A stretch of DNA of 64,000 nucleotides from Sphingomonas sp. DG1-23 (lineage in GTDB: Bacteria > Pseudomonadota > Alphaproteobacteria > Sphingomonadales > Sphingomonadaceae), in assembly GCF_030730875.1 (NCBI RefSeq), contig NZ_JAVAMA010000004.1, positions 186,001-250,000 of the forward strand, given 5' to 3'. Below, piece by piece: positions 5,592 through 31,101 of the stretch. How positions within the stretch are numbered: the first letter of the stretch is position 1; each line of letters starts with the position of its first letter. The notes under the pieces were generated by a model. That model was not told the DNA's origin, ran no database searches, and was given only the letters and a program-made list of their open reading frames with translations. Position numbers and translations under genes: made by a program.

Positions 5592-5614
5592 ATTCGTATG
5601 ATCATCGTATGAAT
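5592..5614. promoter_or_regulatory. Predicted GntR/FadR-type operator, divergent promoter
   Basis: The site attcgtatgatcatcgtatgaat contains the core cgtatgat plus a second cgtatga. It lies between the divergent GH79-GH95 operon and the CE15-type gene. The core recurs at 12001, 13691, 16160, 20811 and 30918, always next to a gene of this sugar locus. The regulator is most likely the FCD-domain protein encoded at 12860. Confidence 0.65.
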
Positions 5615-10943: not shown

Positions 10944-10953
10944 CTGTCTTTCC

Positions 10954-11964: not shown

Positions 11965-12000
11965 GACGTTCCGCTCCGGCTGATTGCGCGTCAGCTAAAG

Positions 12001-12020
12001 ATCATCATACGTCATACGTC
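12001..12020 (-). promoter_or_regulatory. Predicted operator upstream of the AKR-SDR-mutarotase unit
   Basis: Read on the minus strand the site is gacgtatgacgtatgatgat, with two overlapping copies of the gacgtatga core. It overlaps the stop codon of the lactonase gene (12012-12014) and lies 37 bases before the AKR start. This placement implies an internal promoter within the minus-strand cluster. Confidence 0.6.
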
Positions 12021-12839: not shown

Positions 12840-12859
12840 CACGACCTGCCGGGGTTCGA

Positions 12860-13600: not shown

Positions 13601-13690
13601 TGCGGATGCGTCTCGTCGATAAGGGCGTTTCGAATATCGGGCACGTTGCGCGCGAACCACGCGCTTCGTCAACGCCTTGCCAATGAGAAA

Positions 13691-13712
13691 GATAATACAT
13701 AATACGTATTCT
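13691..13712. promoter_or_regulatory. Predicted operator between GntR regulator and dehydratase
   Basis: The site gataatacataatacgtattctg contains the perfect palindrome aatacgtatt (13701-13710). It lies 91 bases upstream of the regulator start and 38 bases upstream of the dehydratase start. It matches the acgtat half of the core found at the other five sites. Repression of both directions by the FCD regulator is the simplest reading. Confidence 0.65.
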
Positions 13713-13749
13713 GGATCGCAGGAACGCGCGGTCGCACGGAGGGGCGTGA

Positions 13750-14904: not shown

Positions 14905-14912
14905 GCGCGACG

Positions 14913-16157: not shown

Positions 16158-16159
16158 AC

Positions 16160-16180
16160 ATAATACGTATGATCATCATT
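16160..16180. promoter_or_regulatory. Predicted operator upstream of the TonB receptor
   Basis: The site ataatacgtatgatcatcat shares tacgtatgat with the other sites of the locus and begins only 3 bases after the MFS stop codon. A ttgaca sequence (16180-16185) abuts it and could be a -35 element, but I see no well-spaced -10 box. Confidence 0.65.
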
Positions 16181-16233: not shown

Positions 16234-19029
16234 ATGGCGTTTCTGGCCCGTAATCTGCGCGTCGCATTGCTCGCGACTCCCGCATTGGGTGCCTTGTTGT
16301 GGAGCGGCGCGGCAGCCGCCCAGACGGCCGATCCGGCCGCACAGACCGCCGCCGAGGCCGCCGATCCCGCGCTCGAGGAAACCGACGAGATCGTCGTCAC
16401 CGGCATCCGCGCCGCCGAGCGCGCAGCGATCGACATCAAGCGCAATTCGGTCGCAGTGGTCGATTCGATCGTCGCCGAGGATCTCGGCAAGCTTCCCGAC
16501 GGCAATGTCGCCGAATCGCTCCAGCGCGTCACCGGCGTGACGATCGAGCGCAATCGCGGCGAAGGGCGCTTCGTCACCGTCCGCGGCTTCGGACCCAAGT
16601 TCAACGCGGTCACCGTCAACGGCCGCACCCTGGCCACCGACAATAATGGCCGCGAATTCTCGTTCGACGTGCTGCCGTCCGAGATCATTTCGGGCGCCGA
16701 TGTCTACAAATCGCCGCAGGCCAACATCAACGGCGCGTCGATCGGCGCCACCGTCGACGTCCGCACCTTGCGCCCGCTCGACCAGAAGACCGGGTTCAAG
16801 TTCGCGGGCTCCGCGGCGGGAATGTGGTCCGAACTGGCCGATAGCTGGAACCCCGAAGTCTCGGGCGTGGCGAGCTGGAAGAATGATGCCGGCACCTTCG
16901 GCGTGGCGATTTCGGGCGTCTATTCGAAGCAGGACAACCGCATCGACGAATTCACCATCGGTGCGGGCCATGTAAAGCGGGGCAGCCTGGCCGCGAACCC
17001 GGCCGAGGGGCGCAACGCCAACGAGTATTTCTTCGGCCGTCTCGGCGCCGGGGTCACTCCGTTCACCGGCGTCGATATGCCGTCGAACCTGTCGCCCTTC
17101 TTCTTCGAGCGCGAATTGACTCGCTGGGGCGCGAACGCCTCGGTCCAGATGCGGCCGAGCGACAAGTTCACCGTCACGATCGACGGCCTGTATTCGAAGG
17201 CGCGCTTCGTCGAGCAGCAGACCGGTCTGGCCTATGACTTTTCGGGCGGCACGGTGGTCGAGCAGGTGGTGACGGGCGGCAGCCTCGTCGGCGGCGTCCA
17301 GACCGGCGGTGCGGTCCAGTTCCAGCGCGTGCAGGGTGGCTTCGTCGACCAGATCATCCAGTATGACGATCGCGACGTCACCACCGATCAGTTCGGCATC
17401 AATGTCGACTGGCGCCCGACCGACGATCTGCGGATCCGGCTCGACGGGTCGGTTTCGGATGCGCGCCGCCGCGGCAAGGAGAACAATCTGTTCACCACCA
17501 TCCGGCGGAAGAACATCAATTACAGCTATGATCGTCGCAGCGGCAGTCCGATCTATGATTATACGTTGAGCAGCCCCAATTATGCGGACGCCGCGACCAA
17601 TCCCCAGGGCGTGACCGCGCATTATTACATCTGGGGCGGCGGCGCGGATATCGACGACGAGATCGAGGAATATCGCAGCGACGTGGAATGGAAGCCGGGC
17701 GGTGGGCCTTTCACGCTGAGCGCCGGCGCGATGGCGCAGAGCCGGATCAAGACGATCACTGCGAACGAGACCTCGTTCGGCGAACAATGCGCCTATTGCA
17801 ATTCGGACCGCGTGCTGCCGGCATCCTTGTTCCAGCCGACCGATCGCAACTTCTTCTCGGGCGGCGGCGGGGATATCCTTCGCGACTGGCTGATCTACGA
17901 TCCGCTCGCACTGGTGCAAACCGTCGACCAGTTCGCCGCGCAAGACGGCAAGGCGTTCAATCCCGGGGTGTTCTCGCCGGCGGCCTCGTCGGTGGTGAAC
18001 GAGAAGGTTCGGGTCGGCTATCTGATGGGGTCGCTCGACACCCAGGTCGCCGGCATGCCGCTCGCGATCAATGTCGGCCTGCGCTACGAGAATACCGATT
18101 ACACCTCGTCGGGCGCATCGCGCACCGTGGTCAGCGCCCGGCCGAACGGCGCGGGCCAGAATATCGTCGTGGTGTCGCCGGTGATCCCGGTCAGCTTCCG
18201 CGGCAAATATGACGACTGGCTGCCGTCGCTCAACGCACGGCTTTCGCTGACCGACAATCTCCTGCTGCGCTTCGCCGCCTCGAAGGTGATGACCCGGCCG
18301 ACGTTGTCCGATCTGTCGCCGCGCCAGTCGATCCAGACCAATCCGGGCAATGAGACGATCAGCCGCGGCAATCCGGATCTCCAGCCGTTCCGCGCGAAGC
18401 AGGTCGAGTTCGGCGCCGAATGGTATTTCACCCAAGATTCGCTGCTGAGCGGCGCGGTCTTCTACAAGGACATCGAATCCTTCGTGACATTGGTCACCAC
18501 CCCGCAGGTGGTCGATCAGGTGAGGTTCCAGGTCACCGTGCCGGACAATGGCAAGGGCGCGACGGTGAAGGGCTTCGAGATCGGCTATCGCCAGTCGTTC
18601 GCGTCGTGGCTGCCGGCGCCGTTCGACGGCTTCGGTGTGCAGACCAGCTTCAATTACACCGACTCGAACGCGAACTATACCAACGCGGTCGCCAATGTGT
18701 CGTTCGGGCTCGAGGGGCTTTCGAAGACGTCGTACAGCCTTGTCGGCTTTTACGAGAAATACGGCTTCTCGGCGCGCGCGGCCTATACCTATCGCGACAA
18801 TTTCCTGCAGGTCGCGTCGGGGCGCAACGGCGAGCCCGAATATTTCGATGCCTATGGTCAGCTCGACGTCAGCCTGTCCTACGACGTGGGATCGCACTTC
18901 ACCGTCTTCGCCGACGCGGTCAATCTGAACAACGCCAAGGAGTTCATCTATTCGGTGAGCGCGGACCGGACCAAGGAGTTCCGCCAGACCGGCAGGCGCG
19001 TTTCGGCGGGGGCGCGGGTTCGGTTCTAG
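16234..19029 (+). CDS. TonB-dependent receptor (Xanthomonas/Caulobacter type)
   Basis: Outer-membrane active transporter of 931 aa for oligosaccharides. The start at 16234 has gagagg 5 bases upstream and gives a signal peptide ending AAAAQ at residue 30. EIVVTGIR (residues 52-59) is the TonB-box-like segment of this group. The plug domain (about 65-190) contains DGNVAESLQRVTGV and VTVRGFGP. A 22-strand barrel follows and the protein ends in Phe (RVRF), as needed for BAM recognition. It has its own operator and lies between permease and GH28 genes, so it is probably the import gate of the locus. The exact glycan is unknown. Confidence 0.93.
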   Translation: MAFLARNLRVALLATPALGALLWSGAAAAQTADPAAQTAAEAADPALEETDEIVVTGIRAAERAAIDIKRNSVAVVDSIVAEDLGKLPDGNVAESLQRVTGVTIERNRGEGRFVTVRGFGPKFNAVTVNGRTLATDNNGREFSFDVLPSEIISGADVYKSPQANINGASIGATVDVRTLRPLDQKTGFKFAGSAAGMWSELADSWNPEVSGVASWKNDAGTFGVAISGVYSKQDNRIDEFTIGAGHVKRGSLAANPAEGRNANEYFFGRLGAGVTPFTGVDMPSNLSPFFFERELTRWGANASVQMRPSDKFTVTIDGLYSKARFVEQQTGLAYDFSGGTVVEQVVTGGSLVGGVQTGGAVQFQRVQGGFVDQIIQYDDRDVTTDQFGINVDWRPTDDLRIRLDGSVSDARRRGKENNLFTTIRRKNINYSYDRRSGSPIYDYTLSSPNYADAATNPQGVTAHYYIWGGGADIDDEIEEYRSDVEWKPGGGPFTLSAGAMAQSRIKTITANETSFGEQCAYCNSDRVLPASLFQPTDRNFFSGGGGDILRDWLIYDPLALVQTVDQFAAQDGKAFNPGVFSPAASSVVNEKVRVGYLMGSLDTQVAGMPLAINVGLRYENTDYTSSGASRTVVSARPNGAGQNIVVVSPVIPVSFRGKYDDWLPSLNARLSLTDNLLLRFAASKVMTRPTLSDLSPRQSIQTNPGNETISRGNPDLQPFRAKQVEFGAEWYFTQDSLLSGAVFYKDIESFVTLVTTPQVVDQVRFQVTVPDNGKGATVKGFEIGYRQSFASWLPAPFDGFGVQTSFNYTDSNANYTNAVANVSFGLEGLSKTSYSLVGFYEKYGFSARAAYTYRDNFLQVASGRNGEPEYFDAYGQLDVSLSYDVGSHFTVFADAVNLNNAKEFIYSVSADRTKEFRQTGRRVSAGARVRF

Positions 19030-19147: not shown

Positions 19148-20770
19148 TCAGCTTCCATAAGTTGTCACATCGCCCAGTGCGACATCGCGGCTGTCGCGGC
19201 TGTCGAGCACCGCGTCGCGGCGCATCGGCGAGGCGATGCGATCGACGATCGCACCCTCGACGTTGCGCAACGCGACGACCGGGCGGGCGTCCGGAGCGGC
19301 GGTGCGCAGACTGACGTCGCGGATGGTGAGGCGGCGGGCATGGCGGGCGTAGAAGCCGGCAGCGGGCAGGGTGCCGAGATAGCTGACCTCGAGGCTGGTC
19401 TCGCGGCGATATTCGGGCACGCGGGCGGCATCCTCGCGCGTGCCGCCGCCGGCAGCAGCGATATCGATGTTGCGGAAGGTCACGTCCTCGACCGGGGAAT
19501 CGGCAATGCCCTCGACCCCGCAGGGAAAGCGCGGCTGCGCGCCCGATACCGCGACGTCCTCGAAGCGCACGCCGCGAATCCGGCCGACCGGCGTGCCGCG
19601 CGGTGCGCGCATCCGCGCGGCATGGTGGACGAATAACGGATGATTGACCGGATCGCGCAGGATGATCCCCGATACCGACACGTCTTCCAGCGTCCCGCCG
19701 TCGACGATCCCCATCAGGATTCCGCGGCTATGGGTGCAGATGCAGTCGCTGATCCGGACGTTGCGGAAGCCGCCATTGGTCTCGGTGCCCAATTTGATCC
19801 GGCCGAGCGGGCCCAGCTTGTCGGGGGCGGGATAGTCCGATGCGCGGTAGCTGCCGTCGAGCAGCGATCCCATCGCATAGCCGCTGGTCTTGCAGCCCGC
19901 GATCAATATGTCTTCGCAGATCACCGCGCGGCCGAGCGCGTAGCTGCTCTTGAGGACGATCGCATCGTCCCTGGGCGCGTTGACCGTGCAATTGACCACC
20001 CGCACGTCGCGGCACGCATCGATGTCGATGCCGTCGCGATCGGTGTCGATCACGAGGCCGTCGAGTTGCATATTGGTGCAGCCATGCGCGATCACGCCGA
20101 AATGCCCGGCCTGCAGGATAGTGAAGCCGTGGAGGCGGACGTTGCGGCAGTTCATCAGCCCGATCGCCTTGTTGGCGCGGCCGATCGGCGCGCGTTCCTT
20201 CGCATCGCGCAGCGCCAGTTCGCGCGGCGTGATGCCGAGCGCGGCGGCGGACTGCCAGCCCGGGCGGGCATGCCAGCGATCGCCCGGACCCTCGCGGTCG
20301 AGCCCCAGCCCGTGGAGCATGCCCGGGCCGAGGATCGCGACGTTGGACACCCCGTCGCCGCGGATCAGGCTGTTGTGGACATGGGTGATCCCGAAATCCT
20401 GGAACTGCTCCTCCCGGTAATTCTCGGGCGGATCGTATTGCGCGCCGTGGGTGTCGGGATCGGCGGCGACGATCGTCGCGCCCGCCGAGAGCACCAGCGC
20501 GATATTGTCGCGCAGCCGCAGGGTGAAGCAGAGATAGCGGCCCGCCGGGATCACGACGGTGCCGCCGCCGCGCTTCGCCGCCGTCTCGATCGCGCGATTG
20601 ATTGCCGGGCTGTCGATCGTCTTGCCGTCGCCGCGCGCACCGTGGCGGCGGACATCCTCGAACACGCCGGCGGCGACCGCCTGCGCCTGATCGGTCAGCC
20701 CGGCGGCGAGCAGCAAGGCGCCGGTGCCGAACAGCGTGGCGCGGCGATCGATCATGGCAGCTGTAAACAA
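19148..20770 (-). CDS. GH28-like polygalacturonase-type glycosidase
   Basis: Secreted right-handed beta-helix glycosidase of family GH28, about 540 aa. Catalytic landmarks are DTDRDGIDID, the paired Asp in APRDDAIVLKS and RIKLGTETNGG (the RIK motif). The usual GHG is replaced around TSGYAMGS. The TTG at 20770 has gggag 6 bases upstream and is used here; an ATG at 20755 (MIDRRATLFGTG) would lose five residues and lacks a good ribosome site. A signal peptide ending QAQA follows in either case. Activity on galacturonan or rhamnogalacturonan is the family norm. The operator at 20811 lies between it and the divergent beta-helix gene. Confidence 0.85.
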   Translation of the reverse strand: MFTAAMIDRRATLFGTGALLLAAGLTDQAQAVAAGVFEDVRRHGARGDGKTIDSPAINRAIETAAKRGGGTVVIPAGRYLCFTLRLRDNIALVLSAGATIVAADPDTHGAQYDPPENYREEQFQDFGITHVHNSLIRGDGVSNVAILGPGMLHGLGLDREGPGDRWHARPGWQSAAALGITPRELALRDAKERAPIGRANKAIGLMNCRNVRLHGFTILQAGHFGVIAHGCTNMQLDGLVIDTDRDGIDIDACRDVRVVNCTVNAPRDDAIVLKSSYALGRAVICEDILIAGCKTSGYAMGSLLDGSYRASDYPAPDKLGPLGRIKLGTETNGGFRNVRISDCICTHSRGILMGIVDGGTLEDVSVSGIILRDPVNHPLFVHHAARMRAPRGTPVGRIRGVRFEDVAVSGAQPRFPCGVEGIADSPVEDVTFRNIDIAAAGGGTREDAARVPEYRRETSLEVSYLGTLPAAGFYARHARRLTIRDVSLRTAAPDARPVVALRNVEGAIVDRIASPMRRDAVLDSRDSRDVALGDVTTYGS

Positions 20771-20887: not shown

Positions 20888-22906
20888 ATGAACGCTGGCG
20901 CCGCTAGATCGCCGATCCGCGCGACCGCGCGAACCGCGATGACGGTGGCGGCATTGCTCGCAGCGACGAGCGCCTTTGCCCAGGCAGTGATCCATGTCGC
21001 GCCGAACGGCGACGATCGCGCGCCGGGCAGCAAGGCGCGGCCGGTGCGCTCGCTCGAACGCGCGCAGGCGCTGGCGCGCGCGGCCAATGCGGGCGGCGAC
21101 GTCACCGTGATCCTCGCCGACGGCAGCTACAGCCTCGAGCGGCCGCTGCGCTTTGGTGCTGCGGACGGAGGGCGGCGCGGCCACCGGGTCGAATGGCGTG
21201 CGGCCGACGGCGCGCAGCCGATGCTGTCGGGCGGACTGAACGTCGGCGGCTTCCGCCTTTATGACGAAGAGCGGCGGATCTGGGTCGCCGACGTGCCCAA
21301 GGGCGTGGATTCGCGCCAGCTCTGGGTCAACGACCAGCTCGCCGAACGGCCGTGGATCGAGATCAAGGCCACGGATCTCGCCTTCACCGCCACCGGCTTC
21401 GACATCGTCAATCCCGACCTCGCTTATGTCGCGGCGATCAAGCGGGCGGACCGGCTCGAGCTCGAGGCGACCGGCTTCTTCACCGATCGCTATTCGCCGG
21501 TGCAGTCGATCGCGGGGCGCACGGTGACGATGCAGCAACCGGCATGGGACAATAACAGCTGGGGCTATGACACCATTACCAAACCGATCTTCCCGGCGGA
21601 TTCGCGGCTGTTCCTCGTCAACGCGCTCGAATTCATCGGCAAGGCCAATGACTGGCACGCCAGGCCCTATCAATGGTTCCTCGATCCGCAGGCCGGCAAG
21701 CTCTATCTTCGGATCGCGCAGGACGACGATGTCAGGCGGCTGAAGGTGGTGCTGCCGCGGCTCGATGCATTGGTCTCGATCGCGGGTACGCCGGCGGCCC
21801 CGGTCGAGCGGCTGAGCTTCCGGGGCTTGCGCTTCTCCTACACCAGCTGGATGGGGCCTTCGCAGCCGACCGGCTATGCCAACCAGCAGAGCGGCGCCTT
21901 TCTGTCCGAAGTCTCGCCGATCCGGCCGCAATCGGCGTGGCAGAGCTGCGGCTGGGGCTGCGTCGAGTTCGAATCGATGCGCCAGCGCTGGAACCAGATG
22001 CCCGCCGCCGTCCAGGTCGCCGCGGCGCGCGACGTGACGTTCGAGGGGAACCGCTTCACCCAGCTCGGCCAGATCGGGCTCGGCATCGGCAACGACGCCA
22101 ACGCCAATCTGAGCGGCGCCGGCCTCGCCACTGCGCGGATCCGGGTGGCACGCAACCATTTCGCGGTGCTTTCCGGCAGCGCGATCATGGCAGGCGGCAT
22201 CCGCGCCGACGCGCATCATCCCGGCGACGCCGCCTTGGTCAATCGCGATCTCGTCATCGAGGACAATGTGGTCGCGACGGTGAGCCAGGATTACAAGGAC
22301 AATGCCGCGATCCTGACCACCTATGTCAGCGGCGCGCGGATCGCGCACAACGACGTCAGCGACGCGCCCTATGACGGCATCGCGGTCGGCTGGGGCTGGG
22401 GGTATAACGATGCCGGCGGCAACCCGAATTACGACGAGAACCAGAAGGGCTACGTTCACAATATCCGCTACACCACGCCGACGACCTTGCGCGATACCGT
22501 GGTGGAGAATAACCGCATCCACGGCGTGAAGACGTGGTTCATGGACGGCGGCGCGATCTACAATCTGTCGGCCAATCCCGGCGCGGTCATCCGCGGCAAC
22601 CACATCTTCGATATCGACGACAAGATCGCGATCTATCTCGATGAAGGCAGCAAGCATTTCCGGGTGACCGGCAACGTCGTCGAGACGCGCGGCAAATGGC
22701 TCAACATCAACACCGCCGGCAAGATGTTCCGCCGGCGGATCTCGACCGACAATCTGGCGACCGGCAATTGGCACAGTTCGTCCACCACCGGCGGGCGCTG
22801 GCTGGCCGAGATCGGCAATACCGCGCGCGACAATGTACTGGTGCCCGACCGCGATTGGCCCGCCGAGGCCAAGGCGGTGATCGATAACGCAGGCGTGCGC
22901 CGCTGA
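20888..22906 (+). CDS. Secreted right-handed beta-helix protein, possibly GH141-like
   Basis: Exported protein of 672 aa starting at 20888 behind gggagcagg. The signal peptide ends SAFAQ near residue 33. The first domain, VAPNGDDRAPGSKARPVRSLERAQALAR, is the opening seen in pectate-lyase-like and GH141 beta-helix enzymes. Helix repeats with IEDN, VENNRI, GAIYNL and IRGNHI fill residues about 240-650. GH141 includes an alpha-L-fucosidase acting on rhamnogalacturonan II, which would suit the two other fucosidases here, but I cannot prove the family or assign catalytic Asp residues with certainty. It ends in a clear terminator. Confidence 0.7.
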   Translation: MNAGAARSPIRATARTAMTVAALLAATSAFAQAVIHVAPNGDDRAPGSKARPVRSLERAQALARAANAGGDVTVILADGSYSLERPLRFGAADGGRRGHRVEWRAADGAQPMLSGGLNVGGFRLYDEERRIWVADVPKGVDSRQLWVNDQLAERPWIEIKATDLAFTATGFDIVNPDLAYVAAIKRADRLELEATGFFTDRYSPVQSIAGRTVTMQQPAWDNNSWGYDTITKPIFPADSRLFLVNALEFIGKANDWHARPYQWFLDPQAGKLYLRIAQDDDVRRLKVVLPRLDALVSIAGTPAAPVERLSFRGLRFSYTSWMGPSQPTGYANQQSGAFLSEVSPIRPQSAWQSCGWGCVEFESMRQRWNQMPAAVQVAAARDVTFEGNRFTQLGQIGLGIGNDANANLSGAGLATARIRVARNHFAVLSGSAIMAGGIRADAHHPGDAALVNRDLVIEDNVVATVSQDYKDNAAILTTYVSGARIAHNDVSDAPYDGIAVGWGWGYNDAGGNPNYDENQKGYVHNIRYTTPTTLRDTVVENNRIHGVKTWFMDGGAIYNLSANPGAVIRGNHIFDIDDKIAIYLDEGSKHFRVTGNVVETRGKWLNINTAGKMFRRRISTDNLATGNWHSSSTTGGRWLAEIGNTARDNVLVPDRDWPAEAKAVIDNAGVRR

Positions 22907-22939: not shown

Positions 22940-22978
22940 CGGCCGCCGCACCTGAATGGCGCGGCGGCCGATTTTTTC
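22940..22978 (+). terminator. Rho-independent terminator after the beta-helix gene
   Basis: A 10-base stem, cggccgccgc (22940-22949) with gcggcggccg (22961-22970), and an 11-base loop are followed by a six-T run (22972-22977). The T run overlaps the stop codon of the convergent glycerate kinase gene. Confidence 0.85.
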
Positions 22979-23780
22979 AGGCAGGGCGGCGGTCGGTGTC
23001 GAGGCGCAGGAAGAGGTCGGCGCGGGCGGGCATCTCTTCGAGAATCCAGCGCGTCAGCCGCTCGTAATGCGCGATGAAGCGGGCGAGGGTAGGGGCGTCC
23101 ATCAGGCCCGCCGTGTCGCGGCCCTGCGCTTCGAGGGTTCGGCGCAGCGTGTCTTCCTGTTCGCCGCGCCAGCGCGCGACGATCTCGAAACCGGGCGCGG
23201 CGAGGAGGACGAGGCGGTCGATCCGCGCGAACAGATCGGCATAGCTGGTCCGCAGCGCGGCGTTGACCGCGCGCCGCCACACGCCCTCGGGATCGGCGTC
23301 GCGCTCGAGCGCATTGACCGGCACTGCCAGGACGCGGTCGTCCTCCGCGCGGGCGCCGACGCACCAGCCTTCGAAGATCAGCAAGTCGAGATTGGCTGGA
23401 ACCGGCTGCCAACGTGTTTCAGGCTCGGGTTCGTCGCGCGCCTTGTCGAAGCGAGGGAGAACGGTGGCGTGCCCGGCGCGGATCGCGTCGAGCGATGCGA
23501 TCCCGTACGCCACGTCATGCGTCAGCGGGACGCCGCGGGTCCGTAGCAAGGGGTGGACGTCCCGCGCCAGCGCCGCGCGTGCCTCTCCAGACAGATAGAG
23601 ATCGTCGAGCGACAGGATCGCAGTGGCGATGCCGCGCGCCGCCATCCGGTCGCGCAGACCCTCCGCCAGCGTCGACTTGCCCGATCCCTGCGCGCCGCAG
23701 AGGCCGAGGATCAGCGGCCGGCGCGCGCCCGCGAGCCAGCCGCGAACCGCGGTCTCTACCCGGTCAAGCGACCCGGTCAC
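22977..23780 (-). CDS. D-glycerate 3-kinase-like protein
   Basis: P-loop kinase of 267 aa in the plant/yeast-type glycerate kinase group. The Walker A motif is GAQGSGKST, followed by ILSLDDLYL and a LIFEGWCVG region as in that family. The GTG at 23780 is chosen so that the protein starts VTGSLDRVE, about 20 residues before the first strand; this overlaps the upstream dehydrogenase stop by 17 bases. It would convert D-glycerate to 3-phosphoglycerate and feed glycolysis. Last gene of the eight-gene operon; with the 2-hydroxyacid dehydrogenase it suggests that hydroxypyruvate or tartronate semialdehyde is made upstream. Confidence 0.82.
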   Translation of the reverse strand: MTGSLDRVETAVRGWLAGARRPLILGLCGAQGSGKSTLAEGLRDRMAARGIATAILSLDDLYLSGEARAALARDVHPLLRTRGVPLTHDVAYGIASLDAIRAGHATVLPRFDKARDEPEPETRWQPVPANLDLLIFEGWCVGARAEDDRVLAVPVNALERDADPEGVWRRAVNAALRTSYADLFARIDRLVLLAAPGFEIVARWRGEQEDTLRRTLEAQGRDTAGLMDAPTLARFIAHYERLTRWILEEMPARADLFLRLDTDRRPA

Positions 23781-24720
23781 GCGGCGGCTCGCCCGCGAAA
23801 AAGGCGTCGAGATTGTCGGCGACGCGCATCCCCATCGCGATCCGCGTCTCGCGCGTCGCGCTGCCGAGGTGCGGCAGCAGCACCGCATTAGGGCAGGCGA
23901 GCAGCGCCGGCGCCACTTGCGGCTCCTGCGCATAGACGTCGAGCCCCGCCGCGGCGATGGTCCCGTTCGACAGGGCGTCGGCGAGAGCGGTTTCGTCGAC
24001 CAAAGTGCCGCGCGCGGTGTTCACCAGCACCGCGCTTGGGCGCATCGCCGACAGGAAATCGGCATCGACCATGTGGCGCGTCGCCGCGCCGCCGGGGGCG
24101 TGGAGCGACACCACATCCGAATCGGCGGCGAGCGCGGCGGGTGTCGCGCGATAGGCTTTAGCCGGCATGTCGTCGGCACGGCTGCGGCTGTGATAGATTA
24201 TGTGCATCCCGAACGCCCGCGCGCGCTCGGCGGTGGCACGCGCGATGCGGCCATAGCCGATCAGCCCGAGCGTCTTGCCGCCGAGGCTGGTGCCGAGCAG
24301 ATGCGTCGGCCGCCAGCCGGACCATTTCCCCGCGCGCAATTCGCGCTCGCCTTCGGAGGCGCGCCGAGTGGCCATCAGGATCAGCAGCATCGCGATATCG
24401 GCAGTGGCGTCGGTGAGCACGTCGGGGGTGTTGGTGACGATGATCCCGGCGGCGCGCGCGGCGTCGAGGTCGATATGCTCGAAGCCGGCGCCGTAATTGG
24501 CGATGATCCGGGCGCGGCGACCATCGACCGCGACGATGTCCGGCGGCAGCCGGTCGGTGACCGTCGGGCACACCGCGTCATGGTCGCGCATCGCCGCGGC
24601 CAATGCGGGGGAGTCGAGCGGGACGTCGTCGAGGTTGCGCGTGACATCGTAGCGTTCGGCCAGCCGCTCCTCGACCGGCTGTGGCCAGCGCCGGGTGAGC
24701 AGGATGCGGGGACGGCTCAC
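23764..24720 (-). CDS. D-2-hydroxyacid dehydrogenase (glyoxylate/hydroxypyruvate reductase-like)
   Basis: NAD(P)-dependent oxidoreductase of 318 aa. The nucleotide fold shows LGLIGYGRIARA, where the third Gly position is Ala-like. Catalytic residues fit Arg in NTARG, Glu in DVYAQEP and His in LLPHLGSAT. The start is GTG at 24720, whose last two bases form the stop of the preceding gene (GTGA). It is closest in style to glyoxylate and hydroxypyruvate reductases, which make glycolate or D-glycerate. The next gene is a glycerate kinase, so reduction of hydroxypyruvate to D-glycerate is the most economical role. Confidence 0.85.
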   Translation of the reverse strand: MSRPRILLTRRWPQPVEERLAERYDVTRNLDDVPLDSPALAAAMRDHDAVCPTVTDRLPPDIVAVDGRRARIIANYGAGFEHIDLDAARAAGIIVTNTPDVLTDATADIAMLLILMATRRASEGERELRAGKWSGWRPTHLLGTSLGGKTLGLIGYGRIARATAERARAFGMHIIYHSRSRADDMPAKAYRATPAALAADSDVVSLHAPGGAATRHMVDADFLSAMRPSAVLVNTARGTLVDETALADALSNGTIAAAGLDVYAQEPQVAPALLACPNAVLLPHLGSATRETRIAMGMRVADNLDAFFAGEPPRDRVA

Positions 24721-25883
24721 AGCAGCCCGCGCGCGGCGAGATTACGCATCAAGGCCGCCGTGCCGAACGTCCATGGCGCACAGGCGTCGGTCGCGGTCAC
24801 GCGGTTGACCAGCGCGCCGAGCGGATCGCAGCTGATCCGCACCGTGTCGCCCTTGTGGTGCGTGAAGCCCTTGCCCTCGGCATCGCGATCTTCGGTCGGT
24901 GCGAACATGGTGCCGAGATAGAGCACGAGCCCGTCGGGATAGCGATGGTGTTCGTTGATCGCCTGCGCGACGATGTCCGCGGGCGGGCGGCTTATCGCCG
25001 ACATCGCCGATCGTCCCTGAAGCACGAACCCGTCGGTGCCGGTGACCGTCAGGCCGACCTCCGCCGCCTCGACATCGGCGAGGCCGAAGCGGCGGTCGAA
25101 CAATCGCACGAACGGCCCGACCGCCGCGGCGGCATTGTTGTCCTTGGCCTTGCCGAGCAGCAGCGCCGATCGCCCCTCGACGTCGCGCAGATTGACGTCG
25201 TTGCCGAGCGTCGCGCCGACGATCCGGCCGGTCGAGGCGATTACCAGCACGATCTCGGGCTCGGGGTTGTTCCAGCTGGAGGCGGGGTGGACGCCGATCT
25301 CGGCGCCGACGCCGACCGTCGACAGCGGCTGGGCCTTGGTGAAGATCTCCGCGTCGGGCCCGATGCCGACCTCGAGATACTGGCTCCATGCACCGGCCGC
25401 GATCAGCGCCCCCTTGAGCGCCATCGCCTCGGGCGAGCCGGGGCGCAGCCGTCGGAGATCGTCGCCGACGAGCGCGCGAACCTGCTCGCGGATGCCGGTC
25501 GCGGCGTCGGCATCGCCGCGGGCGCGCTCCTCGATCACGCGTTCGAGCATCGACGTGGCGAAGGTGACCCCCGCTGCTTTCACTGCCTGCAGGTCGATCG
25601 GAGAGAGCAGCCATGGGCGGCTGTCGTCACGCGCGCGCGGATCGGTGTTGGCAAGGATTTCGGCAAGCTGCCCGATGTCCTCGCCCGGCGCATCGCGCAG
25701 CGCTGCAGCGGGATCGGCGGTTTCGCAGAGATCGCGTACGGTGGCGAAGGCGGCGCTGACATCGGTCAGACGATCGCCATCGACGCGGACCGGCGAGGGG
25801 CCGCTACGGTCGGGGCGCCAGACGCGGCCGAGCAGCAGAGCGTCGCGGTCGTCGGGCAATATGTCTTCGGGAAGCAGCGGCAT
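24717..25883 (-). CDS. FAH-family 2-keto-3-deoxy sugar-acid dehydratase (XylX-like)
   Basis: Fumarylacetoacetate-hydrolase-fold protein of 388 aa. Both length and motifs (VTFATSMLERVIEERARGD, SQYLEVGIGPDAEIFTKAQ, SSWNNPEPEIVL, GNDVNLRDVEGRSALLLGKA) match the group containing Caulobacter XylX, 2-keto-3-deoxy-D-xylonate dehydratase, rather than the shorter (about 280 aa) diketo-acid hydrolases. Metal ligands are likely the Glu pair in NNPEPE and the Asp in GNDVN. It would dehydrate a 2-keto-3-deoxy aldonate to a semialdehyde or diketo acid. It starts 3 bases after the enoyl-CoA hydratase stop. The substrate in this operon is unknown. Confidence 0.82.
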   Translation of the reverse strand: MPLLPEDILPDDRDALLLGRVWRPDRSGPSPVRVDGDRLTDVSAAFATVRDLCETADPAAALRDAPGEDIGQLAEILANTDPRARDDSRPWLLSPIDLQAVKAAGVTFATSMLERVIEERARGDADAATGIREQVRALVGDDLRRLRPGSPEAMALKGALIAAGAWSQYLEVGIGPDAEIFTKAQPLSTVGVGAEIGVHPASSWNNPEPEIVLVIASTGRIVGATLGNDVNLRDVEGRSALLLGKAKDNNAAAAVGPFVRLFDRRFGLADVEAAEVGLTVTGTDGFVLQGRSAMSAISRPPADIVAQAINEHHRYPDGLVLYLGTMFAPTEDRDAEGKGFTHHKGDTVRISCDPLGALVNRVTATDACAPWTFGTAALMRNLAARGLL

Positions 25884-25886
25884 GGT

Positions 25887-26657
25887 TCAGCGCCTCCTGA
25901 AATCGGCTGCGCGCTTCTCGGCAAAGGCGGCGCGGCCCTCGCGGGCGTCCTCGGTCGCGAAGCAGATAGCCTGCAAGTCGCGTTCGTACTCGATCGCCTT
26001 GTCCCACGGCATGGTGAAGGCGGCGCGCAGGTTGAGCTTGGCGGTTTCCGCGGCGATCGGCGCGCGCGACGCGATCACGGCGGCGATCTCGTGCGCGCGC
26101 TCCGCGAGGCGATCCGGCGCCAGCACCTCGCTGACCAATCCCCAGGCCAGCGCGCGATCGGCGTGGATCATGTCGCCGGTCAGCAGCATCATCGCGGCGT
26201 TCGACGTGCCGACCGAATAAGCCAGCCCCGCCGCCATGCCGCCGCCGCCGATCCAGCCGAGCTTGATCTCGGGCGCGGCGAAGCGCGCGTTGGTCGAGGC
26301 GATGCGGATGTCGCAGGCCATCGCCGTCTCCAGCCCGCCGCCCAGCGCATAGCCGTTGATCGCGGCGATCACCGGCTTGCGGCAGGCGCGCAACGCGTCG
26401 CAATAATCGGCGCGGTTGCGGAAATCCCACGCCGTCGCATAGCCGTCGAGCGTGGTGATGTCCGATCCGGCGCTGAACGCCTTTTCGCCCGCGCCGGTGA
26501 CGACCACGGCGCGCACCGCATCCGAACCGTTGCACTCGGCGACCGCCGCGACCAGCGCGTCGGCCATCGCCGGAGTCATCGCGTTCAACTTGTGCGCGCG
26601 ATCGATCAGGATCGTCGCGACGCGATCCTGAATGGTGAACCGCAGGTCTTCGCTCAT
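25887..26657 (-). CDS. Enoyl-CoA hydratase/isomerase family protein
   Basis: Crotonase-fold enzyme of 256 aa acting on an acyl-CoA. The oxyanion-hole segments are GEKAFSAGSDITTLDG and INGYALGGGLETAMACD. The residue that is the second catalytic Glu in many hydratases falls in the region LLTGDMIHADRALAWGLV and reads Asp-Met, so hydratase activity is not certain; isomerase, hydrolase or carbon-carbon lyase activity is possible. Its start overlaps the stop of the solute-binding-like gene (26654-26657). Together with the CoA-transferase it shows that a CoA ester is formed in this pathway. Confidence 0.85.
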   Translation of the reverse strand: MSEDLRFTIQDRVATILIDRAHKLNAMTPAMADALVAAVAECNGSDAVRAVVVTGAGEKAFSAGSDITTLDGYATAWDFRNRADYCDALRACRKPVIAAINGYALGGGLETAMACDIRIASTNARFAAPEIKLGWIGGGGMAAGLAYSVGTSNAAMMLLTGDMIHADRALAWGLVSEVLAPDRLAERAHEIAAVIASRAPIAAETAKLNLRAAFTMPWDKAIEYERDLQAICFATEDAREGRAAFAEKRAADFRRR

Positions 26658-27772
26658 GTCTCCGCTCCGGGCGTGTGATGTCGGGAATAGGCAGCCTCGA
26701 CCGCGTCGAGCACCGGATCGGCGGGCGCGCCGTCGAGCAGGCCGGCGCGCAGCAGCGCCGATGCTTGGGTCTGGAAGGCGATGGCGTGGTTGTGGCGCGG
26801 GCGGACCAGTGCCGCCTCGATCGTCGCGCGCGTCGCGCTGTAGAAGCCCATGGCCGCGGCATCGACCTGCGGGTCGGCCCAGGCGGATCGCAGCGAGGGT
26901 TGGCCGTCATGCGCGGGAATGAAGCCGCGCTGCACCGAATCGGACATCAGCCGGCGGAGATGGTCGAGCAATTGCGGCGTCACCTTGGCGCGGCGCGAAA
27001 CGGCGATGCCGGTGCCGCCCAAGGTCGAGCCGATCCGCCCGCCGGGGCCGCGTGGCGCATCGGCATAGGCAATCGCGCCCTGCGCCGAATAATTCACATA
27101 GCCATAGATCAGCGGGCACAGCACCGGGCCGTCGCCCGATGCCATCGCCTCGAGCATCGCGATCGGATTGAGTCCGGCGGCGCGGCGCGAGGCGTCGCCG
27201 GCGAGGCGCGTGAGGATCGTCCAGGCTTCGCGCGCGACCCTGCGATCGATGAAGCTGTCGCGTGGCTGTGACGATTCGGCACCAAGCGCGCCGCACAACG
27301 ACTGGAAGCTGAGCGCGGCATGCGGACCGGCGAGCGACAAGGCAACCGGCGCGCGTTCGGCGAGCGCGATCACTTCGTCCCAACTGGCGGGCGGGGCTTC
27401 GGCCATGTCGCGGCGGCAGGCCATAACCTGCGTCGCCGCATCGAGCGGCAGCGCCCAGTGGCGCCCCGCATAACGATAGCTCGCCAGCGACGGGCCGATC
27501 GCCGCCGCATCCAGCCGCGCAAGCTCGTCCGCCGCGAACAGATCCTCGAGCGGGACGAGGCACTCGGCGGCGACGGCCTCGCCGACATGCGGATGATCGA
27601 GCACGACGAGGTCATAGAGCGCGCATTGCTCGCCGATCGGCCGCGATTCGAAGCCTTCGAGCGAATGCTTGTCCCACGCGATCCTGACATCGCGCGCGGC
27701 CTCCGCCGCCGCGGCGAGCGCATTGTAGCCGCGCGGGTGTTCCCAGGTCAGGCCGCGATATTCGGGGATCAT
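26654..27772 (-). CDS. Solute-binding-protein-like protein without signal peptide
   Basis: Protein of 372 aa resembling family 1 extracellular sugar-binding proteins: RGLTWEHPRGYNALAAAAEA at the N-terminus, then DLVVLDHPHVGEA, a hinge-like ALPLDAATQVMACRRDM and SWDEVIALAERAP. It starts MIPEYRGLTW and has no signal peptide or lipobox, and no ABC permease or ATPase gene is near. It may be a cytoplasmic ligand-binding or scaffold protein. Its ends overlap both neighbours (stop of the CoA-transferase at 27769-27772, start of the hydratase at 26654-26657), so it belongs to the pathway operon. Function unknown. Confidence 0.65.
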   Translation of the reverse strand: MIPEYRGLTWEHPRGYNALAAAAEAARDVRIAWDKHSLEGFESRPIGEQCALYDLVVLDHPHVGEAVAAECLVPLEDLFAADELARLDAAAIGPSLASYRYAGRHWALPLDAATQVMACRRDMAEAPPASWDEVIALAERAPVALSLAGPHAALSFQSLCGALGAESSQPRDSFIDRRVAREAWTILTRLAGDASRRAAGLNPIAMLEAMASGDGPVLCPLIYGYVNYSAQGAIAYADAPRGPGGRIGSTLGGTGIAVSRRAKVTPQLLDHLRRLMSDSVQRGFIPAHDGQPSLRSAWADPQVDAAAMGFYSATRATIEAALVRPRHNHAIAFQTQASALLRAGLLDGAPADPVLDAVEAAYSRHHTPGAET

Positions 27773-28959
27773 GCGTGCTGGCGGACCACGCCCGATTCGA
27801 CCAGCCGGTCGATCGCGTCGCGATCGAGGCCCAATTCGGTCAGCACCTCGCGACTATGCTCGCCGACCAAGGGCGCGCCGCGGTCGATCCGCGACGGGGT
27901 TTTCGAGAAGCGGATCGGGAAGCCCGGGGTCTTCACCCGGCCCTCGGTCGGATGGTCATATTCGACGAAGGTGCCGTTGTGCCGGATCTGGGGATCGTCG
28001 ACCAGATCGGCATAGCCATAGACCGGGCCGGCCCAGATATCGGCGGTGCGGAAGCGCTCGAGCCATTCGGCGCTGGTCGCCGTCAACAGCCTGGCCTTCA
28101 CCGCGGCGAAGATCGCGTCGCGCTCGGTCCAGCCATGGGTCTGGTCGTCCATTCCCGCGAAAGCGGGCTCGTCGAGCAATTCGCCGAGCTTGGCGAGCGG
28201 CGCCATCGCCAGCGTGATATAGCCGTCTTTGGTCTCGAACACGCCGTAGGGCGCGCGGATATAGCTGTGGGCGTGCGCCTCGGTCGAGCGCGCCTGCGGC
28301 TTGCCGCCGACGGTGAACACCGACAATTCCTGCATCTGGATCGTGGCGATCGCGTCGAGCATGTTGATCTGGACCAACTGGCCCTCGCCGGTGCGCTCGC
28401 GGTGGAACAAGGCGGCGAGCGCGCCCTCGAACGCCGAATAGGCGGTCACGGCGTCGACCAGATATTGCCCGGCGGGCGAGGGCGGCTGCCCCTCCGCGCC
28501 GGTCGACAGCATCGCGCCGGACATGCCCTGCAGCAGCAGATCCTGCCCCGGATAGAGGCGATAGGGGCCGTCCTCGCCATAGCCCGACATCGAGATGTAG
28601 ATCAGCCGCGGATTGATCGCCGACAATGTCGCATAATCGACACCCAGCCGCTCGGCGACGCCGGGGCGGTAATTCTGCAGGAAGACGTCGGCGGTCTTGA
28701 CCATCTCGACCAGCAGCGCCTTGCCTTCGGGCGCCTTGAGATCGACTGCGAGCGAACGCTTGTTGCGATTGAGCGAGAGGAACGAGACGTTGATCTGGTT
28801 GCCGGTCGCGCCGCCGGCGGCGGCGTGGCGCTGCCATTCGCCGGTGATCGGCTCGACCTTGATGACGTCGGCGCCGAGATCGCCCAGCCGCTGCGCGGCG
28901 AACGGGCCGGCCATCGCGATCGAGCAATCGAGCACGCGGATGCCGCTGAGGATATTCAT
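27769..28959 (-). CDS. CaiB/BaiF-type CoA-transferase
   Basis: Class III CoA-transferase of 396 aa. The N-terminal MNILSGIRVLDCSIAMAGP, GADVIKVEPITGEW and FLSLNRNKRSLAVDLK are the standard family landmarks. The nucleophile Asp is expected in YPGQDLLLQGMSG (QDLL). Family members move CoA from one carboxylic acid thioester to another, for example formyl-CoA to oxalate or succinyl-CoA to a substrate acid. Next to an enoyl-CoA hydratase and sugar-acid enzymes it probably activates a short acid from sugar breakdown. It starts 15 bases after the SDR stop. Neither donor nor acceptor can be named. Confidence 0.88.
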   Translation of the reverse strand: MNILSGIRVLDCSIAMAGPFAAQRLGDLGADVIKVEPITGEWQRHAAAGGATGNQINVSFLSLNRNKRSLAVDLKAPEGKALLVEMVKTADVFLQNYRPGVAERLGVDYATLSAINPRLIYISMSGYGEDGPYRLYPGQDLLLQGMSGAMLSTGAEGQPPSPAGQYLVDAVTAYSAFEGALAALFHRERTGEGQLVQINMLDAIATIQMQELSVFTVGGKPQARSTEAHAHSYIRAPYGVFETKDGYITLAMAPLAKLGELLDEPAFAGMDDQTHGWTERDAIFAAVKARLLTATSAEWLERFRTADIWAGPVYGYADLVDDPQIRHNGTFVEYDHPTEGRVKTPGFPIRFSKTPSRIDRGAPLVGEHSREVLTELGLDRDAIDRLVESGVVRQHA

Positions 28960-28973
28960 GATTGGCTGGTCCT

Positions 28974-29720
28974 TCAGGCCATGATCCAGCCGCCGTTGAC
29001 GTGCAGCGTCTGGCCGGTGATGAAGCTCGCCTCGTCGGCGGCGAAAAAGGCGATCGCCGCGGCGATGTCCTCGGCCGATCCGCGCCGCTTGATCGCCTGC
29101 GCGTCGAGGACCATGCGGTTATAGCCTTCGGGGTCGGGATGGATCTTCTCGGCGTCGGTCGGGAAGGCGCCGGGGGCGATCGCGTTGACGGTCACGCCAT
29201 AGGGGCCGAATTCGCGCGCCCAGGCGCGGGTCAGGCCGATCAATGCCCCTTTTGAGGCGACATAAGGCGAGAGGTTCGCCCAGCCGCCCGAGATGGTGAT
29301 GCTCGAAATGTTGACGATGCGGCCGAAGCCGCGGTCGCGCATTCCCGGCAATGCCGCCTGCACCGCGACGATCCCGGCGTCGACGTTGACCCGCTGGACG
29401 AGCTGGTGCTCCTCGATCGAATAGTCCTCGAAGGGTTTCGACGGATAGATCGCGGCATTGTTGACCACGATGTCGAAGCCGCCGGTCTCGCCGGTCAGCC
29501 GGTCGAGTTCGGCGCGGAAGCCGGCGAGGTCCGAGAGGTCCGCGGTCGACACGATCAGCCGTCCGGCGTCGATCGCGGCGGCGGCATCGCGCAGCTTCGC
29601 CACCTTGGCCGGATCATTGTCGACCGCGACCACGGTCGCGCCGCGCCGCATCAGCAACAGGCTGGTGTCGAGGCCGAGCCCGCCCGCCGCACCGGTGTAG
29701 AGGATCCGGCGGCCCTTCAT
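28974..29720 (-). CDS. SDR-family NAD(P)-dependent dehydrogenase
   Basis: Short-chain dehydrogenase of 248 aa. The cofactor motif is TGAAGGLG, with D34 in VVAVDND pointing to NAD preference. NNAA, the Ser of NISSITISG and YVASK complete the active site. It is distinct from the fucose-pathway SDR at 10215. The start overlaps the DUF4432 stop (29717-29720). It probably oxidises a sugar, sugar lactone or keto-acid alcohol group in the unidentified pathway. Confidence 0.88.
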   Translation of the reverse strand: MKGRRILYTGAAGGLGLDTSLLLMRRGATVVAVDNDPAKVAKLRDAAAAIDAGRLIVSTADLSDLAGFRAELDRLTGETGGFDIVVNNAAIYPSKPFEDYSIEEHQLVQRVNVDAGIVAVQAALPGMRDRGFGRIVNISSITISGGWANLSPYVASKGALIGLTRAWAREFGPYGVTVNAIAPGAFPTDAEKIHPDPEGYNRMVLDAQAIKRRGSAEDIAAAIAFFAADEASFITGQTLHVNGGWIMA

Positions 29721-30898
29721 GCGCCGCGTCCGGGGATGGCGGGGAAGTTGCCGCTGGGCTGCGGATATTCCTCTTCCGGCTGGCGGGCGACGCGCTCGAT
29801 CCGGGCGACGGCGTCGGCCACCGCCGCCGCGTCGGGCAATATCCGCAACACGGTGTCGTAGCGACGCTCGTCGCCATGCTCGAGCCAGATCAATTCGCCG
29901 CGCTCGCGGGCGAAATCCTTGCCGAGGACATGGTTCGTCGAAGGCTCAATGCCCATCGCGTAATGACCGGCGTGAAAGTTCTGCCACTGATACATTGCCG
30001 GGAACTGGCGCTTGAGCGTCTCTACCTCGAAGCCGAAGCCGAGCGCCTCGTTGACCAATGCGACATTGACCCGGCCGTCGCCGTCGGCGGCCATGTCGTG
30101 CTGCCAGACCTGCTCGTGGAAATTCAGGATCGGGGCGGGCATGGTGCGATAGCCGACGCCCTGCGCTTCGTATTTGTCCGCATGCGCCGCCCACAGCACC
30201 TCGCGGATCGGTGCGACGTAGCGCGATCCTTCCGCCAGCACCGGATGGCCGGCGTTGATGTGATAGCAATACATATGCGGGGTGCGGTAGAAACCATGAT
30301 TGACCACGCGATCGTGCATGCGGATTTCGTCGCTGCCGACATTCGCCTCGATGCGGCGGATCAAATGCAGATCCTCGCCGAACACGGTCGATTGCTGGAC
30401 CACGCCCTCGGCCCACAGCACGCATGCGTCGCCGTCCCAGCGCTCGCCATAGCCGGTGAGGCGCGCGGGGATCGTGCCGACGCGGCCGTGGAGCGACGAC
30501 GACACGGCCTTGCGCGGGCCGTAGAAATAATGGCCGGCGGGATCCTCGTGCATGAACAAAGTGTGGTCGAGGCCGCAGGTGATGTTGAGCCCGGACATCG
30601 AGCGGAACCAGCCGAGCCCGCCTTCGCCTTCATAGTCGTGGAGACTGGGATGGCGGAACCCCGCGGGCGAGTGCCAGCCGACCGCGCGGCCGGAATGCTC
30701 GCACTCGGCGATGTCCATCGCGCGATCGACCAGCACGGTGAAGCGCAAGCCGGTGCCGGTGCGGAATTCGAGCCGGCGGACGCCGCGCTCCACCCCGTCG
30801 CCGAGCGTCGACAGCTGGACGCCGGCGAATTGCGACAGGCTGCCGGTGCGCTCGGCAAGCGCCCGCCGCGACAATGTCTCGCCGAACAGCGCGACCAC
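29717..30898 (-). CDS. DUF4432-like aldose-epimerase-fold protein
   Basis: Cytoplasmic protein of 393 aa resembling DUF4432, a family with the galactose-mutarotase-like beta-sandwich. Landmarks are VLVDRAMDIAECEHSG, SGLNITCGLDHTLF, YCYHINAGHPVL and MGIEPSTNHVLG. The start is set at GTG 30898, with ggagggg 3-10 bases upstream; the frame stays open further up, but that would place the operator inside the gene. It is the first gene of the eight-gene operon, which suits an entry step such as mutarotation or isomerisation of an incoming sugar. The substrate is unknown. Confidence 0.75.
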   Translation of the reverse strand: MVALFGETLSRRALAERTGSLSQFAGVQLSTLGDGVERGVRRLEFRTGTGLRFTVLVDRAMDIAECEHSGRAVGWHSPAGFRHPSLHDYEGEGGLGWFRSMSGLNITCGLDHTLFMHEDPAGHYFYGPRKAVSSSLHGRVGTIPARLTGYGERWDGDACVLWAEGVVQQSTVFGEDLHLIRRIEANVGSDEIRMHDRVVNHGFYRTPHMYCYHINAGHPVLAEGSRYVAPIREVLWAAHADKYEAQGVGYRTMPAPILNFHEQVWQHDMAADGDGRVNVALVNEALGFGFEVETLKRQFPAMYQWQNFHAGHYAMGIEPSTNHVLGKDFARERGELIWLEHGDERRYDTVLRILPDAAAVADAVARIERVARQPEEEYPQPSGNFPAIPGRGA

Positions 30899-30917
30899 CA
30901 GCCCCTCCACGTAGAAT

Positions 30918-30940
30918 TTATAAGACGTATGATGTCTAAC
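30918..30940 (-). promoter_or_regulatory. Predicted operator of the eight-gene operon
   Basis: The site ttataagacgtatgatgtct carries agac/gtct arms around gtatgat. Its 13-base acgtatgatgtct is identical to the site before GH28 (20811). It lies 20 bases upstream of the chosen GTG start, so it would cover or follow the promoter. This ties the operon to the fucose-locus regulator. Confidence 0.65.
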
Positions 30941-31101
30941 CGGTGATTTGGGCTTCGTCAAACGCTACGCGGGAGCGGACCGTATTCAGCGCAGGGGCAA
31001 GGATCGGCCGCTGGTGTCACCTCGGGGGCCATCGGAGCCGAGGGGCGCGGCCTCGATGCGGAGTCGGGCGTGACCGGGGCATAGGGCGGGGCGCTTCCCG
31101 A

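Follow-up and report, generated by a model that had tools for sequence, protein, structure and literature searches.

A CoA-transferase, a solute-binding-like protein and a hydratase as a candidate unit for sugar-acid dehydration in Sphingomonas sp. DG1-23

In the carnitine system, CaiB and CaiD dehydrate a 3-hydroxy acid as its coenzyme A (CoA) ester, and the CoA is handed back from the product to the substrate. Pairs of a CoA-transferase and a MaoC hydratase are known from the mesaconyl-CoA and itaconate routes. PMC6336799 describes a FAH-superfamily enzyme (COG3970) that acts on D-2-keto-3-deoxypentonate (D-KDP). Here, a window of 64,000 nucleotides from the 4.59 Mb genome of Sphingomonas sp. 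DG1-23 (G000:C13:186001-250000) was analyzed, in which a family III CoA-transferase (CaiB), a solute-binding-like protein and a crotonase-fold enoyl-CoA hydratase (ECH), hereafter the trio, are encoded in one run of eight genes together with enzymes of sugar and sugar-acid metabolism. We consider it somewhat probable (roughly 0.6) that the trio dehydrates a sugar acid as a CoA thioester in an oxidative sugar pathway and replaces the usual metal-dependent aldonate dehydratase. The proposal builds on direct observations, namely gene order, protein families, catalytic residues, a predicted fold, an operator, conservation, and the finding that sister loci encode MaoC in place of the crotonase. The initial annotation of the window had not recognized the combination, and the system is undescribed as far as literature searches aimed at it go; in a gap-filling paper (PMC9007349), the passages on CoA-transferases and hydratases deal with other pathways.

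The eight genes run on the minus strand from approximately 30910 down to 22977, and neighboring genes are −17 to +14 bases apart according to open reading frames and gene calls:

29717..30910, minus strand: DUF4432 protein, aldose-1-epimerase-like, predicted mutarotase, first gene of the operon (PF14486, 319 bits)
28974..29720, minus strand: short-chain dehydrogenase (SDR), predicted sugar 1-dehydrogenase (PF13561, 181 bits)
27769..28959, minus strand: family III CoA-transferase, CaiB-like (PF02515, 363 bits)
26654..27772, minus strand: solute-binding-like protein (SBP_bac_8), apparent core partner of the CoA-transferase
25887..26657, minus strand: crotonase-fold enoyl-CoA hydratase, ECH (PF00378, 201 bits)
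24717..25883, minus strand: FAH-superfamily protein, predicted 2-keto-3-deoxy-acid dehydratase (PF01557)
23764..24720, minus strand: D-2-hydroxyacid dehydrogenase, glyoxylate/hydroxypyruvate-reductase-like (PF02826, 190 bits)
22977..23780, minus strand: P-loop kinase, glycerate-3-kinase-like (PDB 7xpc, D-glycerate-3-kinase, 54 bits)

The genes, their order and their overlapping or nearly touching arrangement are those given in the initial annotation. The eight-gene order was also found in other genomes when related loci were compared and, being conserved elsewhere, is not due to chance. Pfam supports the family of every gene except the kinase, for which weak P-loop models alone were obtained in Pfam and NCBIfam and D-glycerate 3-kinase chains in the PDB scored at most 54 bits. 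The DUF4432 protein matches PDB entry 3ty1 ("hypothetical aldose 1-epimerase") with 124 bits; its start is ambiguous (GTG at 30898 or 30910, TTG at 30961). None of the best 25 of 223 matches of the SDR exceeded its NCBIfam cut-off, and the 2-hydroxyacid dehydrogenase scored 276 bits against the glyoxylate reductase model NF009714, below the cut-off of 455. The FAH protein is of the 388-amino-acid type. Its best PDB match is 9kkt, for which a literature search gave only an unrelated paper, and Glu179, a candidate catalytic residue only, is invariant (44 of 44).

According to the proposed pathway, the DUF4432 mutarotase-like protein and the SDR would convert an aldose via the lactone to the aldonate. 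CaiB would load CoA onto the aldonate, initially from a donor such as succinyl-CoA; in later rounds the reaction product would donate it, and a single CoA would thereby serve many turns, as in the carnitine CaiB/CaiD system. The solute-binding-like protein would bind the aldonate or its CoA ester and pass it between CaiB and the crotonase, which would take off the C2 proton and the C3 hydroxyl to give an enol and, from it, the 2-keto-3-deoxy acid. This acid would be dehydrated further by the FAH protein. Salvage of hydroxypyruvate or glycerate would fall to the 2-hydroxyacid dehydrogenase and the glycerate-kinase-like protein, which would channel a C3 product into phosphoglycerate; this is the weakest of the proposed steps. 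Asp169 of CaiB, the presumed nucleophile, is conserved in all 109 aligned pieces from relatives; the nearest solved chain is a succinate-hydroxymethylglutarate CoA-transferase (225 bits). In ECH, the glutamates at the catalytic positions of rat enoyl-CoA hydratase, Glu110 and Glu130, are each conserved in all 87 aligned pieces.

When species genomes were searched with the solute-binding-like family, 311 stretches were found to encode a relative, and the 80 best loci were retained for comparison (genes counted at E up to 1e-8 and coverage of at least 35%). CaiB is present in 80 of these 80 loci and ECH in 79, next to the binding-like protein, whose own 80 of 80 follows from its use as the query. 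The SDR (69 loci) and the DUF4432 protein (63 loci) are frequent, and the FAH protein (41), the kinase (36) and the 2-hydroxyacid dehydrogenase (35) occur in about half of the loci or fewer. CaiB and the binding-like gene are separated by −19 to +20 bases; this was measured in 68 loci, those with calls for all three core genes and CaiB on the plus strand. The trio is therefore the unit, with the mutarotase and the SDR as its usual partners, and the FAH protein, the dehydrogenase and the kinase form an optional tail. The hosts include sphingomonads, caulobacters, azospirilla, rhizobia, rhodobacters, one comamonad and two actinobacteria, among others. Full-length relatives of the binding-like protein are uncommon at large: any match was found in 22 of 398 phylum genomes searched, and four of these matches were short and weak.

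Further genes accompany part of the 80 loci. A homologue of flavin mononucleotide (FMN)-dependent L-lactate dehydrogenase is present in 18, 17 times within the same-strand run of the trio, and follows the kinase as the next match in L018, L019, L021, L024-L028, L032, L038, L042, L043, L058, and L073. Gfo/Idh proteins (21 of 80) and AP_endonuc_2 proteins (sugar-isomerase-like, 20 of 80) are encoded mostly directly upstream of DUF4432 (L044-L048, L056, L060, L062, L064, L068, L070, L080, L081, and others), hinting at an extra sugar conversion ahead of the oxidation.

The enzyme that the trio would replace was looked for in the same loci. No match to any of four IlvD proteins of the own genome, used as queries for IlvD/EDD dehydratases, was obtained in the 80 trio loci, and Pfam found neither an IlvD/EDD nor an enolase-family dehydratase among the eight operon genes. 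Six Azospirillum loci (L050, L051, L054, L055, L063, L065) have the order SDR-CaiB-SBP-ECH-FAH-ALDH (SBP, solute-binding-like protein), followed in the three with further genes called by a binding protein and an ABC ATPase. They resemble a Weimberg set from which the aldonate dehydratase alone is missing, with the trio apparently in its place. Six loci of rhizobia and their kin encode an SDR and a PF10282 lactonase, beyond a divergent transporter block, together with the trio. In both groups, an oxidative sugar set contains the trio and no aldonate dehydratase. For comparison, 289 class genomes supplied 40 control loci that encode the same FAH protein and lack the binding-like protein. IlvD was found in 9 of the 40 controls and in none of the 41 FAH-bearing trio loci (p 0.001, uncorrected for kinship). 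A clean replacement of IlvD by the trio was rejected on this control and the contrast is kept as modest support; the low count of nine arises because most FAH relatives sit in unrelated contexts. Distant CaiB matches occur in three control loci (L146, L169, L185), again in the absence of the binding-like protein.

The hydratase of the unit is not always a crotonase. A paralogous locus in the own genome (L099) encodes CaiB, the binding-like protein, a second CaiB and a MaoC hydratase instead of the crotonase, along with Gfo/Idh, a sugar-type ABC transporter and a GH106 (glycoside hydrolase family 106) alpha-L-rhamnosidase. Next to GH106 (L099, 15235-17460), an apparently secreted protein of 741 residues without a Pfam match is encoded, perhaps a glycosidase, with a 67% identical homologue in L133. 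A second set of 26 loci was obtained from 26 of 29 full-length hits to the binding-like protein; one of them, L130, and L056 from the first 80 share the same binding-like protein. CaiB occurs in 23 of the 26, and the hydratase is MaoC alone in 15, ECH alone in seven, both in one (L129), and neither in three. In a tree of 107 binding-like proteins, 13 of the 15 MaoC rows form one clade with the mixed locus L129, whose ECH is 69% identical to that of the window, and the MaoC loci L100 and L131 are placed elsewhere on long branches. From these placements and the ECH of L129, the hydratase was probably exchanged more than once. The crotonase and MaoC folds are unrelated; enzymes of both folds hydrate or dehydrate an acyl-CoA at C3, with opposite stereochemical preference, and this is the chemistry that they share. 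Since two unrelated folds appear interchangeable beside CaiB, the common step would be the hydration or dehydration of a 3-hydroxyacyl-CoA. We regard this exchange as the strongest single argument for the suggested chemistry.

The binding-like protein comprises 372 residues, and its ATG overlaps the stop codon of CaiB. No recognizable signal peptide or lipobox was seen by reading its sequence, no signal-peptide program having been run. The first strand of its AlphaFold2 model begins at residue 4, and in the 80 loci at most 72 bases separate the CaiB match from the SBP match, leaving little room for an export signal. The model has a confident solute-binding fold near maltose- and trehalose-binding proteins, and the 50 structural matches listed contained binding proteins only and no enzyme, though this carries no weight against a catalytic role. 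There is no permease or ATPase among the eight operon genes, and in some relatives a transporter is present with a separate binding protein of its own. Over 38 diverse members, 40 columns are invariant, in our judgement more than expected for a transport protein. The protein is apparently cytosolic. The label "solute-binding-like" of the initial annotation thus holds for the fold and is incomplete otherwise: with no recognizable signal peptide, strong conservation and its association with the CoA-transferase, the protein is best understood as a core part of the unit rather than part of a transporter. A second SBP-family protein whose start also lacks an obvious signal peptide is encoded in L099 (G000:C16:114000-133900, 2325-3509) between a sugar permease and Gfo/Idh, with homologues of 72-74% identity in L132, L133, and L141.

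The protein might also be a cytosolic sensor or scavenger outside catalysis, with CaiB and ECH acting alone. Its fold is that of transport proteins and no catalytic motif was recognized in it, as such a role would have it; yet CaiB accompanies it in 80 of 80 and 23 of 26 loci, which were picked by that protein, the two genes nearly touch in all 68 loci measured, and the 40 invariant columns point the same way, so that we hold this alternative to be unlikely.

Quite unlikely, too, is a reversed order of events, which the initial annotation had suggested: the FAH protein would dehydrate and cleave the sugar acid first, CaiB would activate a small fragment, ECH would hydrate it, and reduction and phosphorylation to phosphoglycerate would follow. 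The dehydrogenase and the kinase do come last in the gene order of the window, and the families would suit a CoA ester of the glyceryl or acrylyl type. However, a unit for processing fragments should accompany the enzyme that cleaves, and within the trio loci FAH is absent from 39 of 80, the kinase from 44 and the dehydrogenase from 45, while CaiB and ECH are nearly constant and the mutarotase and the SDR mostly stay with the trio. It is this combination of a near-constant CaiB/ECH pair and an optional tail that most likely places the CoA step before the FAH step. The more general suggestion of the initial annotation, a CoA ester in a sugar-acid pathway, gains support from the conservation of the trio and the exchange of its hydratase.

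The least probable alternative, degradation by the trio of a non-sugar acid on the same polymer (e.g., hydroxycinnamate or another acyl group) through CoA activation and a hydratase or hydratase/lyase, can appeal to the acyl groups carried by pectin and to the existence of hydroxycinnamoyl-CoA lyases in the ECH family (the ECH of the window scores 143 bits with that model, below the cut-off of 276), but it is opposed by the content of the eight-gene operon, which includes no thiolase, no acyl-CoA dehydrogenase and no aromatic gene, by the sugar ABC transporters, Gfo/Idh, PF10282 lactonase and ALDH adjoining the relatives, and by the sugar-binding fold predicted for the partner protein.

Several points weigh against dehydration of a sugar acid by the trio. 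The step is read from gene neighborhoods, and the aldonyl-CoA intermediate is hypothetical; no aldonyl-CoA was found in the literature searched. A pentose route leaves the role of the dehydrogenase and the kinase unexplained. The own genome already has a set of IlvD, FAH and SDR (C18, L184) as well as a rhamnose-type set (C10, L145; labels by eye), which leaves the need for a second route unexplained; by the same token, the substrate of the trio may be an acid not accepted by the ordinary enzymes. The IlvD contrast is modest because 31 of the 40 control loci lack IlvD as well. Of the 80 loci, 26 contain enolase-family genes, in only one case (L052) in the same-strand run of the trio, and such a nearby gene could serve the pathway of the trio. 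The core also has its gaps: no match to CaiB or a hydratase accompanies the binding-like protein in three diverged loci (L102, which is near a contig end, L103, and L104), no ECH match was obtained in L076, and in L137-L139 CaiB and ECH are located 6 to 9 kb away from the binding-like gene. In 8 of 20 MaoC alignments, all from one diverged class, the catalytic histidine is replaced by valine. Furthermore, GH106, an SDR like L-2-keto-3-deoxyfuconate (L-KDF) dehydrogenase (at least 54% identity) or a 281-amino-acid hydrolase is encoded near 7 of the 15 MaoC loci, but this rhamnose/fucose context is weak support because the same SDR and hydrolase queries match 19 and 8 of the 80 ECH-type loci, respectively.

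The valine-bearing MaoC class is encoded near CaiB and the binding-like gene in L122-L128 and L100, of which L100, L124, and L125 additionally carry a MaoC with the histidine.

The operon shares an operator of 13 bases, ACATNATACGTNT, with neighboring genes of predicted pectin and fucose utilization:

30923..30935, minus strand: operator ACATCATACGTCT preceding the eight-gene operon, one of the four exact sites in the genome
20816..20828, plus strand: operator in the divergent promoter of the GH28 and GH141-like (beta-helix) genes
16158..16170, plus strand: operator preceding the TonB receptor gene
13697..13709, plus strand: operator between the GntR gene and an enolase-family gene (divergent promoter)
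12860..13600, minus strand: GntR/FCD regulator, predicted from its position to bind the shared operator (PF00392, PF07729)
16234..19029, plus strand: TonB-dependent receptor (labeled by reading of the sequence only), homologues in 22 of 80 trio loci
19148..20755, minus strand: predicted GH28-family rhamnogalacturonidase (NF049898, 552 bits, above the cut-off of 500)
20939..22906, plus strand: right-handed beta-helix protein, GH141-like (AlphaFold2, pLDDT 88.2)
9865..16157, mixed strands: fucose-type genes around the operator at 13697

The four exact sites in the window are the only ones in the genome; 0.14 sites are expected in the window with at most one mismatch, a flattering figure, as the pattern was picked after the sites had been seen. 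In L006-L011, L016, and L017, the operator begins 33 to 38 bases upstream of the DUF4432 match, and 16 of the 80 related loci contain an exact site somewhere. The operator proposed in the initial annotation is therefore real, including the site in front of the operon, and coregulation of the operon with a pectin/fucose regulon is supported by these sites. The element is shared with fucose-catabolic genes; none of the four exact sites lies at the GH29/GH95 fucosidases at the start of the window, for which sharing had been claimed earlier.

The fucose-type genes encode a RhaM-like mutarotase, an L-KDF 4-dehydrogenase-like SDR, an aldo-keto reductase, a fuconolactonase-like protein, an enolase-family dehydratase and an MFS protein. 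The SDR is close to 8y4j/8xwk (325 bits), which we take to be L-KDF 4-dehydrogenase. The best structural match of the beta-helix model is 5mqp (BT_1002; TM score 0.70, 22% identity), presumably a GH141 fucosidase of rhamnogalacturonan II, from which we take the GH141 label. Between GH95 and a glucuronyl-esterase-like gene (4176-5549), a protein of 457 residues without a Pfam or NCBIfam match is encoded. A longer imperfect palindrome, ATTCGTATGATCATCGTATGAAT, which resembles the shared operator, is located at 5592-5614 upstream of the glucuronyl-esterase-like and GH2 genes.

The neighboring GH141-like and GH28 genes point to pectin as the sugar source. Crotonases remove L-3-hydroxyls, drawn on the left in a Fischer projection, as in D-xylonate, L-arabinonate, D-galactonate, and D-gluconate, and R-specific MaoC enzymes remove right-hand 3-hydroxyls, as in L-rhamnonate and L-fuconate. 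The MaoC loci near rhamnose/fucose genes fit the right-hand preference, albeit weakly. L-galactose and L-fucose, earlier considered as substrates of the operon, are disfavored by this C3 stereochemistry. L-Rhamnose and L-fucose were rejected for the ECH unit, as the own genome has other sets for them and the C3 configuration argues against both. D-Galacturonate is less likely, because the own genome has a uronate cluster resembling the isomerase type (L144, labels by eye) with UxaC, 4.8 kb before the window (G000:C13:179898). As the regulon includes GH141-like and GH28 genes, 2-O-methyl-D-xylose from rhamnogalacturonan II makes an attractive candidate. It is a long shot that, besides the IlvD/EDD and enolase types, the trio constitutes a third class of sugar-acid dehydratases, with a cytosolic solute-binding-like subunit that is obligatory for catalysis. 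This class would handle acids that metal enzymes cannot use, above all those of the 2-O-methyl sugars of rhamnogalacturonan II; the crotonase form found in this operon would serve for 2-O-methyl-D-xylose and the MaoC form for 2-O-methyl-L-fucose or a derivative of rhamnose.

If the trio does act on sugar acids, these would be dehydrated via CoA thioesters, joining sugar oxidation to chemistry of the fatty-acid type, a link not found in the literature searched. The proposal would suggest a function for a family now named "extracellular solute-binding protein" although no export signal is recognizable in it, and likewise for CaiB and ECH genes of a type that annotation normally assigns to carnitine or fatty-acid metabolism. 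It carries a stereochemical prediction, namely that crotonase units take acids with a left-hand C3 and MaoC units those with a right-hand C3, and it would help to explain the use of pectin sugars by plant-associated bacteria.

Among the known systems, the carnitine pair CaiB/CaiD likewise combines a family III CoA-transferase with a crotonase hydratase. In contrast to it, the operon stands in a sugar context and has the solute-binding-like protein in addition, and its CaiB scores 147 bits against the L-carnitine model, the cut-off of which is 413. With the Weimberg pathway, which leads from D-xylose or L-arabinose to 2-oxoglutarate, the operon has in common a sugar dehydrogenase and the family of FAH-type 2-keto-3-deoxypentonate dehydratases, and the Azospirillum loci also an ALDH. 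It differs in having CoA genes where an IlvD/EDD dehydratase, found in none of the 80 loci, is expected, and in lacking an ALDH (2-oxoglutarate semialdehyde dehydrogenase) in the operon of the window; contig C4 carries a 64% homologue of the Azospirillum ALDH. The diketo-hydrolase pathway of L-fucose and L-rhamnose is represented by the L-KDF dehydrogenase-like SDR and the lactonase, which share the operator of the operon, whereas the FAH protein of the operon is of the 388-amino-acid type and not the 281-amino-acid hydrolase. As a homologue of the latter is encoded on C10 (64% identity), the operon FAH was rejected as the missing hydrolase of the fucose pathway. Finally, L099 joins CaiB-type genes with MaoC like the pairs of the mesaconyl-CoA and itaconate routes, but unlike these it also contains a sugar-type ABC transporter, Gfo/Idh, an alpha-L-rhamnosidase and the binding-like protein.

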